Below, in pieces: positions 19,943-23,673 of a stretch of DNA of 64,000 bases (within the stretch, counting starts at the first letter, position 1; each line of letters starts with the position of its first letter). The position numbers and the translations under genes are program-made. Below the pieces are notes generated by a model. That model worked only from the letters and a program-made list of their open reading frames with translations, ran no database searches and was not told the DNA's origin. This DNA comes from an uncultured Acidobacteriota bacterium (lineage in GTDB: Bacteria; Acidobacteriota; Terriglobia; Terriglobales; Acidobacteriaceae): NCBI GenBank assembly GCA_903832295.1, contig CAILAZ010000309.1, forward strand, positions 1 to 64,000, given 5' to 3'.

Positions 19943-20023
19943 ATGATTTTCTCCTCCACCATGGCCTGTTGTTGCGCGAGCATGTGTATGTGCATGCGCG
20001 ACGGCTCTGGCATGGGGAGATAA
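19943..20023 (+). CDS. predicted Cys/Met-rich leader peptide, MIFSSTMACCCASMCMCMRDGSGMGR
   Basis: 26-codon ORF with TGT TGT TGC and ATG-TGT-ATG-TGC-ATG; promoter-like TTGTGC-17-TAGAGT ends 6 nt before ATG; followed by terminator 20053-20086 with a complementary leader segment. Confidence 0.7.
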   Translation: MIFSSTMACCCASMCMCMRDGSGMGR

Positions 20024-20052
20024 TCGACAGCTTTCAGTAATAAGTTTTGTCG

Positions 20053-20086
20053 AACCCACTGCCAGAGCGCAGTGGGTTTTTGTTTT
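20053..20086 (+). terminator. attenuator/terminator immediately upstream of tRNA-Cys
   Basis: AACCCACTGC-cagagc-GCAGTGGGTT followed by TTTGTTTT; 10 bp perfect stem. Confidence 0.85.
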
Positions 20087-20088
20087 AG

Positions 20089-20164
20089 GCACGGGTGGCG
20101 AAGCGGCTAACGCGGCGGACTGCAAATCCGTTATTCATGGGTTCAAATCCCATCCCGTGCTCCA
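20089..20164 (+). tRNA. tRNA-Cys (anticodon GCA at 20122-20124), CCA encoded
   Basis: Acceptor GCACGGG/CCCGTGC, discriminator T then CCA; anticodon arm GGACTGCAAATCC; T-arm ATGGGTTCAAATCCCAT. Confidence 0.93.
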
Positions 20165-20186
20165 GCATCCGCAAGGACGTAAGACG

Positions 20187-20291
20187 ATGACGACCACGCC
20201 CAATTCGACGATGACCGGCACGGCCACCATGGCCATGTGCATGTGTATGCGTCACGGTATCCCTGGCGTGGGCGGAGAATCCGGAGAGTAA
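20187..20291 (+). CDS. predicted Cys/Met-rich leader peptide, MTTTPNSTMTGTATMAMCMCMRHGIPGVGGESGE
   Basis: 34-codon ORF 22 nt after tRNA-Cys; shares MCMCMR[D/H]G with the upstream leader using different synonymous codons; followed by terminator hairpin 20319-20347 with a complementary leader segment. Confidence 0.68.
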   Translation: MTTTPNSTMTGTATMAMCMCMRHGIPGVGGESGE

Positions 20292-20318
20292 AGCAGCAAC
20301 ATCCGGTTCGATTTTCCG

Positions 20319-20354
20319 AAGGCCCACGCCGAACAAGCGTGGGCCTTCCCTTTT
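20319..20354 (+). terminator. attenuator hairpin upstream of ORF 20378..20710
   Basis: AAGGCCCACGC-cgaacaa-GCGTGGGCCTT then CCCTTTT; 11 bp perfect stem. Confidence 0.78.
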
Positions 20355-20377
20355 GGCGCAGTACAGGAGCAACGACG

Positions 20378-20710
20378 ATGAAACAGCAAGCGCATTCGCA
20401 ACCGCAAACCAAAACCCTGACGCACATCTACGTCCGCGACGCACAGCAGGGCTTTGTGCGCCCCTGCTGGGCCAGCGGCCCGGAGCTGTATTGCGGCATG
20501 TGCATGCGGGGTGTGGTGCGGGCGGAGCTCGGTGCGACCTGCCCGGTGTGCAGCAGCACGGTGGAGCGCATTCTGGAAGTTACCGAAGGGGGTACGCCGA
20601 AGTTCACACGCCAACGACGTGAGTGTTCCATCCGCGTGGGTGCGGCGCGGCAGGAGGAACGACAGGCTGTGCTGTTGAACTTCAGGGCTTCGCAGCGGGG
20701 GCTTGCATAA
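20378..20710 (+). CDS. small zinc-ribbon-like hypothetical protein
   Basis: Trimmed from ORF 20237..20710 to ATG with AGGAGC RBS; YCGMCMRGVVRAELGATCPVCSS CxxC pairs. Confidence 0.55.
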   Translation: MKQQAHSQPQTKTLTHIYVRDAQQGFVRPCWASGPELYCGMCMRGVVRAELGATCPVCSSTVERILEVTEGGTPKFTRQRRECSIRVGAARQEERQAVLLNFRASQRGLA

Positions 20711-20781: not shown

Positions 20782-21132
20782 CTAGGCGGCCATCATCATC
20801 TTTGCAGTCATCGAACAGGACTCGGCGCAGCGTCGGCACATTTCCGCGCAACGCATCATCATCGGATTGTCGCTCATGCCTTCGCACATCATCGCGCAGG
20901 CGCTGCACATCTCGGCGCACATCATGCACATCTTGCCGCCCATGGGAGACATGCGCATCATCATGTTTGCGCACATCTGGCACATCTCCATGCAGTCCAT
21001 GAGCATGGACATCTTCTTCATGTCCATCATGCCCATCTTCATGCACTGCATCATGGCTTCCATGCACATTGCCATGCAGCTGCGACAATCCTCCATACAT
21101 CGACGCATGTCCATTGACATTTCCATTTCCAT
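20782..21132 (-). CDS. hyper Met/Cys-rich four-helix-bundle copper-binding protein (DUF326/Csp-like)
   Basis: 116 aa with 42 Met and 17 Cys by manual count; repeated CxxxC and CxxC patterns (MRRCMEDCRSCMAMC...RCAEMCRRCAESC); RBS AGGAGA. Confidence 0.8.
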   Translation of the reverse strand: MEMEMSMDMRRCMEDCRSCMAMCMEAMMQCMKMGMMDMKKMSMLMDCMEMCQMCANMMMRMSPMGGKMCMMCAEMCSACAMMCEGMSDNPMMMRCAEMCRRCAESCSMTAKMMMAA

Positions 21133-21256: not shown

Positions 21257-21288
21257 AAAAAAGCCCGGTATCTTTGCGAACACCGGGC
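21257..21288 (-). terminator. rho-independent terminator of the trans-sulfuration operon
   Basis: Minus strand GCCCGGT...ACCGGGC followed by TTTTTT. Confidence 0.8.
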
Positions 21289-21314: not shown

Positions 21315-22475
21315 TTATTTGGCGGCGAACGAGAGCGCGTGGCTGGCGGCGGCGGTGAGCGCCTGATCGAGGTCGGCAATGAGGTCTCCGCTGTCTTCAA
21401 TGCCTACGGAGATACGCACAAGTTCCGGCGGCAGTACGCGCGTGGCGGCGATCTCCGGGGGCACGCTGGCGTGCGACATGGCGGCCGGGAGGCTGATGGT
21501 TGAGTGAACGCTTCCAAAGCTGACGCAGATCTGGAACATCTTTGCATTCTCGGCAATTGCCTTTGCGGCCTCCGTGGAGTGCGCCGTAAAGCTCAATACC
21601 GATCCCGCCCCGCTGGCCTGGCTGCGCTGCAACGGGGAGTGGGTGAGCCCGGGATAGAAGACATGGCCGACTCGCGCATCGGCGGCGAGGAATTCCGCAA
21701 TCGCCTGGGCGTTGCGCTGCTGCGCATCCAGGCGGAGCTTCAGGGTCTTGAGTCCGCGTTGCAATAGAAAGCAGTCAAAAGGCGCCAGCGCATTGCCCTC
21801 GGCGTTTTGCAGGAAGGCGATGTCGCCGCCAAGTTTCTCATCCCGAACGACCACCATGCCGCCGGTGACATCGGCATGCCCGCAGAGGAATTTTGTCGCG
21901 GAGTGGAGGACGACGTCGGCACCCAACTCCAAGGGACGCTGGAGGTAAGGCGACATGAGGGAGTTATCCACCACAAGCAGCGCACCATTGGCATGCGCCA
22001 GCGCAGCGAGGGCGCGGAGGTCCAGTACGCGCAGCAGTGGGTTGGTGGGGGACTCGGCATAGATGATGCGGGTGCGCGGCGTGATCTTCGCCGCAAAAGT
22101 CTCGAGGTCTCCGGCATCGGCGTAATGTGCGGTAATTCCGCTGCGCTCGAGCACGCGGGTAAAGAGACGGCAGGTGCCGCCATAGAGATCGCTGTCTGCG
22201 AGAATTTCATCCCCGGCGCGCAGGGTGCGCGCCACGGCAGTAATGGCCGCCATGCCGCTGGCGAAGGCAAAGCCACGCTGGCCGCCTTCCAGCTTTGCCA
22301 CGAGTTCCTCAAGAACCTTGCGGGTGGGATTACCACTCCGCGAGTAATCGAAGTCGCCGAAGCTATCGGCGTGCTCCTGCTCAAAGGTCGCCGTCTGGTA
22401 GATGGGCGTGGCCGTGGGACGGTAGGGGTCGCCGGGGGCGGCCTGATGCTGCACGAGCTGACTAGCGAACTTCAC
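21315..22475 (-). CDS. trans-sulfuration PLP-dependent enzyme (cystathionine gamma-synthase/lyase family)
   Basis: GTG start at 22475 overlapping the previous stop, AGGAGG RBS; PLP lysine motif HSATKFLCGHADVTGG. Confidence 0.88.
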   Translation of the reverse strand: MKFASQLVQHQAAPGDPYRPTATPIYQTATFEQEHADSFGDFDYSRSGNPTRKVLEELVAKLEGGQRGFAFASGMAAITAVARTLRAGDEILADSDLYGGTCRLFTRVLERSGITAHYADAGDLETFAAKITPRTRIIYAESPTNPLLRVLDLRALAALAHANGALLVVDNSLMSPYLQRPLELGADVVLHSATKFLCGHADVTGGMVVVRDEKLGGDIAFLQNAEGNALAPFDCFLLQRGLKTLKLRLDAQQRNAQAIAEFLAADARVGHVFYPGLTHSPLQRSQASGAGSVLSFTAHSTEAAKAIAENAKMFQICVSFGSVHSTISLPAAMSHASVPPEIAATRVLPPELVRISVGIEDSGDLIADLDQALTAAASHALSFAAK

Positions 22476-23673
22476 TGGCGGCCTCCTGAGCGCGTTGGGC
22501 GCAAGACAGAGCGCAACCCGCGGCGGCAAAGGCCTGCGCGAGATCGGCGATGATGTCGGCGGGCGACTCCAGCCCGACGGAAATGCGGATGAGTCCCTCG
22601 GAAATTCCGAGAGCCGCGCGCGTCTCCGCACCGAGGTCGGCGTGAGTGGTGGAGGCCGGATGGGTGATCAATGTCTCCAGCCCTCCCAGGCTTTCGGCGC
22701 GCGAGCAGAGCTGGACCGAGTTGAGCACAGCGATGGCGGTCTCAAAGGGAGCGTCGAGTTCAAAGCTCAACATGCCACCGGCGGCGCGCTGCTGTCGCAA
22801 CGCAAGCTCGTGCTGGGGAAAGCTCCGCAGGCCCGGGTAGTAGACGCGGGCAACCGACGGTTGCGACTCGAGCCACTCGGCGATCTGCTGCGCGTTCTCG
22901 CAGTGGAGGCGCAGCCTGGCAGGGAGCGTCTTGATGCCCTGAAGGGTGAGCCACGCCTCGAAGGGCGCCTGTATGGAGCCGAGCGTCTTGCGAATCAAAC
23001 GGAAGCGCTCCGCAAGCTCCGGGTTTTGCGTAGCCAGCGATCCGCCGACGGTGGCGTTATGTCCGTCCATGTACTTGGTAGTGGAGAGGACGCTGATATC
23101 CGCACCCAGTTCCAACGGGCGCTGGAGCGCGGGAGTCAGGAAGGTGTTATCCACGGCGAGCAAGAGTCCGTGACGGCGCGTAATTTCAGCAACCGCGGCA
23201 ATGTCTGTGAGGGTGAGGATGGGATTGGCCGGAGACTCGATGAAGACGATGCGCGTCTGCGGGGTGATTGCCGCTTGCACGTTCGCGGCCTCGGAGGTGT
23301 CCACAAAACTGGCGGTGACGCCGAAGGGCTCAAGGATTTCGCGGAAGAGACGGATGGTGCCGCCGTAGAGCACCTTGGAGAGGATGGCGTGGTCGCCGGC
23401 CTTGAGGAGGGAGAAGAACAGCGTGCTCTCTGCTGCCAGACCGGTGCGGAAACACACTGCCGGCGGCGTACCCTCGAGTGCGCCGATGGCCCGCTCGAGC
23501 GCATCTACCGTGGGGTTGGAGACGCGCGAGTAGCTGAAACCCTTATCTACACCGACGGCATCGTGAACGAAGGTGCCCGTCTGGTAGAGCGGGAAGAGCA
23601 GCGAACTGGCGTGCGAATCCAGCGAGCGTCCGCCGTGAATAGCAAGGGTGGCAATGTCGTGCGGGGAAGCCAT
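22462..23673 (-). CDS. trans-sulfuration PLP-dependent enzyme (cystathionine gamma-synthase/beta-lyase family)
   Basis: LAIHGGRSLD..., PLP lysine motif LSTTKYMDGHNATVGG, VYYPGL. Confidence 0.88.
   Translation of the reverse strand: MASPHDIATLAIHGGRSLDSHASSLLFPLYQTGTFVHDAVGVDKGFSYSRVSNPTVDALERAIGALEGTPPAVCFRTGLAAESTLFFSLLKAGDHAILSKVLYGGTIRLFREILEPFGVTASFVDTSEAANVQAAITPQTRIVFIESPANPILTLTDIAAVAEITRRHGLLLAVDNTFLTPALQRPLELGADISVLSTTKYMDGHNATVGGSLATQNPELAERFRLIRKTLGSIQAPFEAWLTLQGIKTLPARLRLHCENAQQIAEWLESQPSVARVYYPGLRSFPQHELALRQQRAAGGMLSFELDAPFETAIAVLNSVQLCSRAESLGGLETLITHPASTTHADLGAETRAALGISEGLIRISVGLESPADIIADLAQAFAAAGCALSCAQRAQEAASEVR

Follow-up and report, generated by a model that had tools for sequence, protein, structure and literature searches.

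A predicted copper storage protein saturated with methionine, and the leader peptides, tRNA-Cys gene and small protein gene beside it, in an uncultured Acidobacteriota bacterium

What use might a bacterium have for a small protein that is half methionine and cysteine, and why should its gene stand beside leader peptides built on codons for the same two amino acids? Both questions are raised by a minus-strand ORF in the window (the whole 64,000-nt stretch of DNA analyzed here). The preliminary description had placed an ORF at 20782–21132 and counted, by hand, 42 Met and 17 Cys in its 116 residues (about 51%). The ORF is present there and the count was exact: Met and Cys make up 50.9% of the protein, with Met alone about a third of residues, and Trp, like His, is missing altogether. 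Among the 181 window ORFs of at least 100 aa, the next-highest Met plus Cys share is 11.2%. A Shine-Dalgarno-like AGGAG precedes the ATG, and pairwise dN/dS across this gene and two orthologs is about 0.08–0.26 (0.071/0.855, 0.302/1.145, and 0.300/2.400), indicating purifying selection; for both reasons it is considered a real gene. A chance or spurious ORF is ruled out by the orthologs, the purifying selection, and the fold.

Members of the RkCsp3 subgroup of Csp3 copper storage proteins are tetramers that bind Cu(I) tightly, about 17–20 per monomer. By sequence, predicted model, and structural alignment, the window protein is a genuine Csp3-type protein of the subgroup represented by RkCsp3 (Methylocystis sp. 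Rockwell, PDB 6zif) and NmCsp3 (Nitrosospira multiformis, PDB 3lmf). These two were its best PDB sequence matches in phmmer searches (E 6.7e-14 for 3lmf, 1.3e-13 for 6zif), and Pfam DUF326 was matched at 22.2 bits (cut-off 20.4). The NCBIfam Csp1 model TIGR04401 gave 12.8 bits where 100 are required, a cut-off missed, as expected, because the protein is a Csp3. The structure model, built with 14 related Csps, has a pLDDT of 95 and four helices (residues 7–33, 38–59, 65–84, and 90–115). Its top Foldseek match is 6zif (TM 0.85–0.92), and VIA-align superimposes it on 3lmf with Z 19.7 and on 6zif with Z 19.5, at an rmsd of about 1 Å over 104–106 residues; every Csp scored above Z 16, and unrelated bundles begin at Z 13.3. 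In the sequence alignment all 16 Cys positions of RkCsp3 (residue numbering from PMC10155185) are Cys in the window protein, and within each helix the Cys point to one face (helical wheel, vector length 0.88–0.94). The resemblance of the Cys spacing to DUF326/Csp bundles, first noticed by eye, was thus borne out, as was the expected fold: the model that had been proposed as a check is a four-helix bundle with Csps as its best structural matches. No Sec or Tat signal is apparent by inspection, as the protein begins MEMEMSMDMRRCMEDC and helix 1 already starts at residue 7.

RkCsp3 and NmCsp3 are a non-classical subgroup of the cytosolic Csp3s (PMC10155185). The window protein shares with them, besides fold, length, and the 16 Cys positions, the lack of a signal peptide, the lack of the classical alpha3-alpha4 His motif, and a core Met (Met58, equivalent to RkCsp3 Met60). 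It differs in having 42 Met instead of the ordinary handful, no His, an additional Cys (Cys54), and Leu at the Met46 position; around the core and mouth, Met stands in for His and aliphatic residues. In RkCsp3, Met46, Met60, and Met108 coordinate Cu(I) or sit at or near Cu(I) sites (PMC10155185). Just one of these three known ligands is conserved one-to-one, since Met46 corresponds to Leu44, with Met on both sides of it, and Met108 aligns with Thr109, with the window protein's own Met108 adjoining. The thiolate-lined four-helix bundle is also shared with Csp1 and the classical Csp3s (MtCsp3, BsCsp3, and SlCsp3; Z 17.6–19.1), but at only about 20–27% identity in the structural alignments and without their mouth Cys and His.

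Ten ordinary Csp3s from the same phylum have 5–11 Met and 4–8 His. A search for Csp homologs similarly rich in Met, another check suggested at the outset, found two orthologs and one more distant protein. The orthologs, in genomes G072 and G090, are 64–65% identical to the window protein and likewise lack His (39 Met and 18 Cys in 119 aa; 40 Met and 19 Cys in 120 aa). With the window gene they are the only intact Met-saturated members among 398 genomes of the family, and they form a clade with tree support of 97/96. The sole Met-rich Csp found outside the family is from an actinobacterium, Candidatus Frankia meridionalis (L004:4992-5339), with 25 Met, no His, and no leader cassette. It falls outside the three-member clade, joined to it at 94/91 (not starred), although its placement and the branch length are uncertain because, as the tree program warned, these sequences depart in composition from the others in the alignment. 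Its Met may have been enriched independently, or the gene may have been transferred long ago. None of the three congeners examined has a Met-saturated csp, and a second Csp in the window's own genome was rejected, as the search there gave just two weak matches (E 0.12–0.2). Plasmid-borne copper resistance was likewise rejected; two queries matched none of 72,556 plasmids.

Table 1. Features in and around the csp cassette, in window coordinates
Feature	Position	Strand	Remarks
Leader ORF 1	19943..20023	+	MIFSSTMACCCASMCMCMRDGSGMGR; antiterminator segment 20004-20012
Intrinsic terminator 1, between leader 1 and tRNA-Cys	20052..20079	+	5' arm 20060-20068 pairs also with leader 1
Extra, divergent tRNA-Cys (GCA)	20089..20164	+	two more tRNA-Cys genes elsewhere in genome
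Leader ORF 2	20187..20291	+	MTTTPNSTMTGTATMAMCMCMRHGIPGVGGESGE; antiterminator segment 20264-20273
Intrinsic terminator 2, 11-bp stem	20319..20347	+	5' arm pairs also with leader 2 (10 bp)
Small two-CxxC protein, 110 aa, conserved partner	20378..20710	+	convergent with csp
Met-saturated Csp3-type copper storage protein (predicted)	20782..21132	-	116 aa, 42 Met and 17 Cys, no His
Terminator dividing upstream metC/metB-like genes from csp	21263..21288	-	
Cys/Met-metabolism PLP enzyme, best NCBIfam match cystathionine beta-lyase	21315..22544	-	not conserved beside orthologs
Cys/Met-metabolism PLP enzyme, best NCBIfam match cystathionine gamma-synthase	22462..23673	-	not conserved beside orthologs

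On the plus strand of the window, leader ORF 1, a terminator, a tRNA-Cys gene, leader ORF 2, a second terminator, and the gene for a small two-CxxC protein follow one another, with csp tail to tail with the last of these (Table 1). Both leaders are thus on the strand opposite to csp and do not precede it. A csp leader of its own was rejected, none being recognized upstream when the sequence was read directly; nor was there any Rfam element in the csp 5' region (the tRNA is the sole Rfam match), a recognizable CsoR/CueR-type operator, or a promoter above the threshold of the promoter scan. An operon with the metC/metB-like genes was also rejected, given the intervening terminator and the different neighbors of the orthologs. 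The other flank of the window locus is an outer-membrane barrel/CarboxypepD gene. The two leaders stand in series (19943–20710), and the small protein gene may therefore sit behind two terminators and tRNA-Cys behind one; output dosage of the two would differ.

The cassette was found in three intact copies and one decayed copy. In G072 and G090, leader, terminator, small protein gene, and reversed csp are in the window order, without the tRNA. The arrangement is conserved in three genera with different flanking genes in each (an aldo/keto reductase and a CBM9 protein in G072, a CTP transferase in G090). No leader-and-small-protein cassette of this kind was seen at nine loci with ordinary csp genes in the family. 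The decayed copy, in G098, keeps leader 1, tRNA-Cys, and leader 2, but its small protein gene has a stop and only about the last 15 codons of csp are left. Directly upstream of it are genes for an OEP, a CusB-type adaptor, and a CusA/CzcA RND protein (TIGR00914, 1153 bits). The adjacency to CusA genes is seen in this decayed copy and at one related tRNA-Cys leader in another genome lacking csp (G032); in both, leader and tRNA-Cys lie directly downstream of an RND efflux operon encoding an outer-membrane factor, a CusB-like protein, and CusA/CzcA (L056:511-6521 in G098, L136:3290-9740 in G032).

The small protein family has no Pfam match above cut-off (13 bits at best) and no structural match with E below 0.001, and only a beta-rich core of its model reaches a pLDDT of about 90. 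Its core, CG[IM]C[ML]R...GAxC..C, is seen in the window protein (20378–20710) and in A4 members in L030, L031, and L034; in L030 and L031 the gene follows genes opening with a VVAHP(DDE) motif like that of PIG-L deacetylases.

The genome has two other tRNA-Cys genes, and the window tRNA-Cys is unlike either. This type has matches in 79 of the 398 genomes of the family, and most of the matches have the length needed for the same tRNA. At the loci examined it is usually preceded by a leader with a run of Cys codons (MTIMPNTMPTLCCCCCCSPVWVCG is an example) and by a 1-Cys peroxiredoxin gene; this order of leader, peroxiredoxin gene, and tRNA-Cys is the commonest context (L122, L126, L128-L134). 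In G032 it follows a CusA/CzcA gene instead, and in another genome it comes after an ABC transporter ATPase/permease pair (L110:68-1487) resembling importers of taurine, sulfonate, or nitrate. To our knowledge, a tRNA gene within a Cys-attenuated operon is unusual. The interpretation in the preliminary description, which had remarked on the leaders, held in part; it had missed both the conserved cassette and the extra tRNA-Cys gene fronted by one of them.

For eight leaders (two each from the window and G098, one each from G072, G090, G032, and G096), the end of the ORF was scanned for segments able to pair with the terminator's 5' arm, with p values taken from shuffles. Seven have an alternative pairing of 7–12 bp, 5–20 nt past the last Cys codon, the exception being leader 2 of the decayed G098 copy. 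Shuffle p values are 0.0005–0.005 in five of these, with 0.005 for the first window leader (W1) and 0.0015 for the second (W2); the G072 and G090 pairings are 7 bp each, with p of 0.05 and 0.07. The paired segments are GCTCTGGCA/TGCCAGAGC in the window versus TCTTCTGGCG/CG(T/C)CAGAAGA in G032 and G096, and the proposed antiterminator/terminator pairings are supported by this tendency of both partners to change together between relatives. The leader stop codon follows at once. The antiterminator segment would stay free as long as a ribosome is held up at the Cys/Met codons, and would be covered by one that has gone on to the stop, which is the logic of classical attenuation of transcription. 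Judging by the alternative RNA pairings that can form, all seven could act as ribosome-mediated attenuators. They share with uORFC-8-2, a ribosome-mediated Cys attenuator before cysS (PMC8632094), a short ORF with Cys codons followed by alternative antiterminator/terminator stems; unlike uORFC-8-2, the window leaders precede tRNA-Cys and a small two-CxxC gene, and have alternating Met codons. Terminators at the tRNA-Cys leaders of relatives were read by eye, in two cases, and sigma-70-like spacing before some leaders lay below the promoter-scan threshold.

The leaders had been called Cys/Met-responsive from the start. They are real short ORFs with the anatomy of attenuators, and a response to amino acid supply is likely for Cys and plausible for Met. 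The plain Cys runs in the leaders of relatives suggest sensing of Cys-tRNA. Alternating Met and Cys is confined to the Met-rich cassette leaders, where a 10-residue cluster holds 3–4 Met, versus 0–2 in 18 others, without overlap (p = 9e-5, which is optimistic because the compared loci are related); those of G032 and G096 are Cys-only relatives.

For the leaders, direct sensing of Cu(I) is the chief competing explanation: a nascent MCMCM or MCSMCMCC stretch would bind Cu(I) on the ribosome and stall it, the antiterminator would open, and copper itself, in place of amino acid supply, would switch the tRNA-Cys and small-protein genes, much as with CruR and CutF. Alternating Met and Cys is the kind of ligand pattern that suits Cu(I), and it sets these leaders apart, without overlap, from the Cys-only ones of relatives, but the cluster would be deep in the exit tunnel at the time region 2 must be free. 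Copper-sensing nascent peptides are known, CruR (PMC9426467) and CutF (PMC9973294), and share with the window leaders a translated upstream ORF, a Cys motif, and a link to copper genes, to which the position of the decayed G098 cassette after CusCBA-type genes can be added. However, CruR and CutF are much longer, exported proteins of DUF2946 type that carry an arrest motif, whereas the present leaders span 26–34 aa and have intrinsic terminators, and none is an exported CxxC/CxxxC protein with a C-terminal RAPP-like or Pro-rich arrest motif. The wider group of tRNA-Cys leaders, moreover, carries CCCCCC before a peroxiredoxin gene, best explained by Cys-tRNA sensing. Direct copper sensing thus appears a somewhat unlikely explanation.

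As to the protein, the positions of its Met bear on what they might do. By helical-wheel calculation (not from coordinates), eight face the core on the Cys side, 17 flank it, nine face outward, and eight are in loops or ends. Those common to all three orthologs number 7 of 8 in the core, 12 of 17 flanking, 6 of 8 in loops, and 4 of 9 outward. At flanking positions, Met stands mostly where ordinary Csp3s have Ile, Leu, Val, or Phe, and 11 of these positions are hydrophobic in them. Met20 replaces a nearly invariant His (present in 9 of 10 ordinary Csp3s), and the helix 1–helix 2 loop, which in ordinary Csp3s carries His (GGxHA...H), now reads G-M-M-D-M-K-K-M. This is the pattern expected if thioethers, as putative Cu(I) ligands, had replaced residues of the mouth and wall.

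The Met could instead serve as an oxidation shield, with those on the surface and flanking the core scavenging oxidants and guarding the Cys core and Cu(I) clusters without being ligands. Nine outward-facing Met and eight in loops would suit such a role, and the pairing of the same tRNA-Cys with a 1-Cys peroxiredoxin in relatives gives the regulon an oxidative-stress flavor. It is the core and flanking Met, however, that are better conserved, and the simultaneous loss of the mouth His fits ligand replacement, so that a shield seems unlikely as the explanation. A sulfur amino acid reserve, also entertained in the preliminary description, in which Met and Cys would be banked when abundant and released by degradation under starvation, the Csp fold being a mere scaffold, might be read from the extreme composition, the metC/metB-like neighbors on the same strand, and the adjacent leaders resembling Cys/Met attenuators, but is very improbable because what is conserved is the metal-site residues: all 16 Cu-ligand Cys positions of RkCsp3 are retained along with the fold, selection on csp is strongly purifying, core Met are better conserved than surface Met (7/8 vs. 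4/9), which a reserve would not need, and the metC/metB-like genes are parted from csp by a terminator and are not beside the orthologs.

Probably the protein serves in the cytosol as a store or sink of Cu(I), its core made of thiolates and its walls of thioethers, and its neighbors respond to shortage of Cys- and Met-tRNA. The mixed thiolate/thioether store first suggested from the composition remains the best account of the protein, given the location of RkCsp3 Met46, Met60, and Met108 at Cu(I) sites (PMC10155185) and the full set of 16 Cys. By analogy with RkCsp3, the conserved core Cys set of the four-helix bundle would take up about 17 Cu(I). With Met in place of core-adjacent aliphatic residues, the mouth His, and many polar surface residues, Cu(I) might be captured and passed inward via thioether sites with no need for His. 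The convergent cassette would provide translation and partner functions. A shortage of Cys-tRNA (and Met-tRNA), for example during mass production of a 51% Cys/Met protein, would stall ribosomes on the leader; the segment so freed would pair with the 5' arm of the terminator, and read-through would continue into the extra tRNA-Cys and the two-CxxC protein. That csp synthesis itself causes the shortage is a further supposition, and its own dependence on Met and Cys supply, suggested in the preliminary description, is likewise conjectural. More tentatively, the cassette could be one for copper defense that senses the translational cost of its own product, in that synthesis of the sponge would drain charged Cys- and Met-tRNA, ribosomes would stall on leaders with Met/Cys codons matching its composition, and tRNA-Cys (with the two-CxxC partner) made by read-through would let the sponge be finished; this is possible, though doubtful.

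Csp3 proteins, the RkCsp3 subgroup, and Cys attenuators were already known. In the open-access literature searched, which takes in few subscription journals, no description was found of a Met-saturated, His-free Csp or of an attenuator before a tRNA-Cys gene. A tRNA-gene attenuator with codons mirroring the composition of a neighboring protein would be a supply-demand circuit undescribed in that literature. Csp biochemistry rests on thiolate chemistry plus one or a few Met. If the proposed reading is true, no Csp before this one would have had its wall lined with thioethers and its mouth free of His. With Met in place of His and aliphatic residues throughout, this natural clade offers a direct test of the role of thioethers in Cu(I) loading and release and in the Cu(I) capacity of Csps, and the cassette provides a way to test what a sulfur-saturated protein costs.
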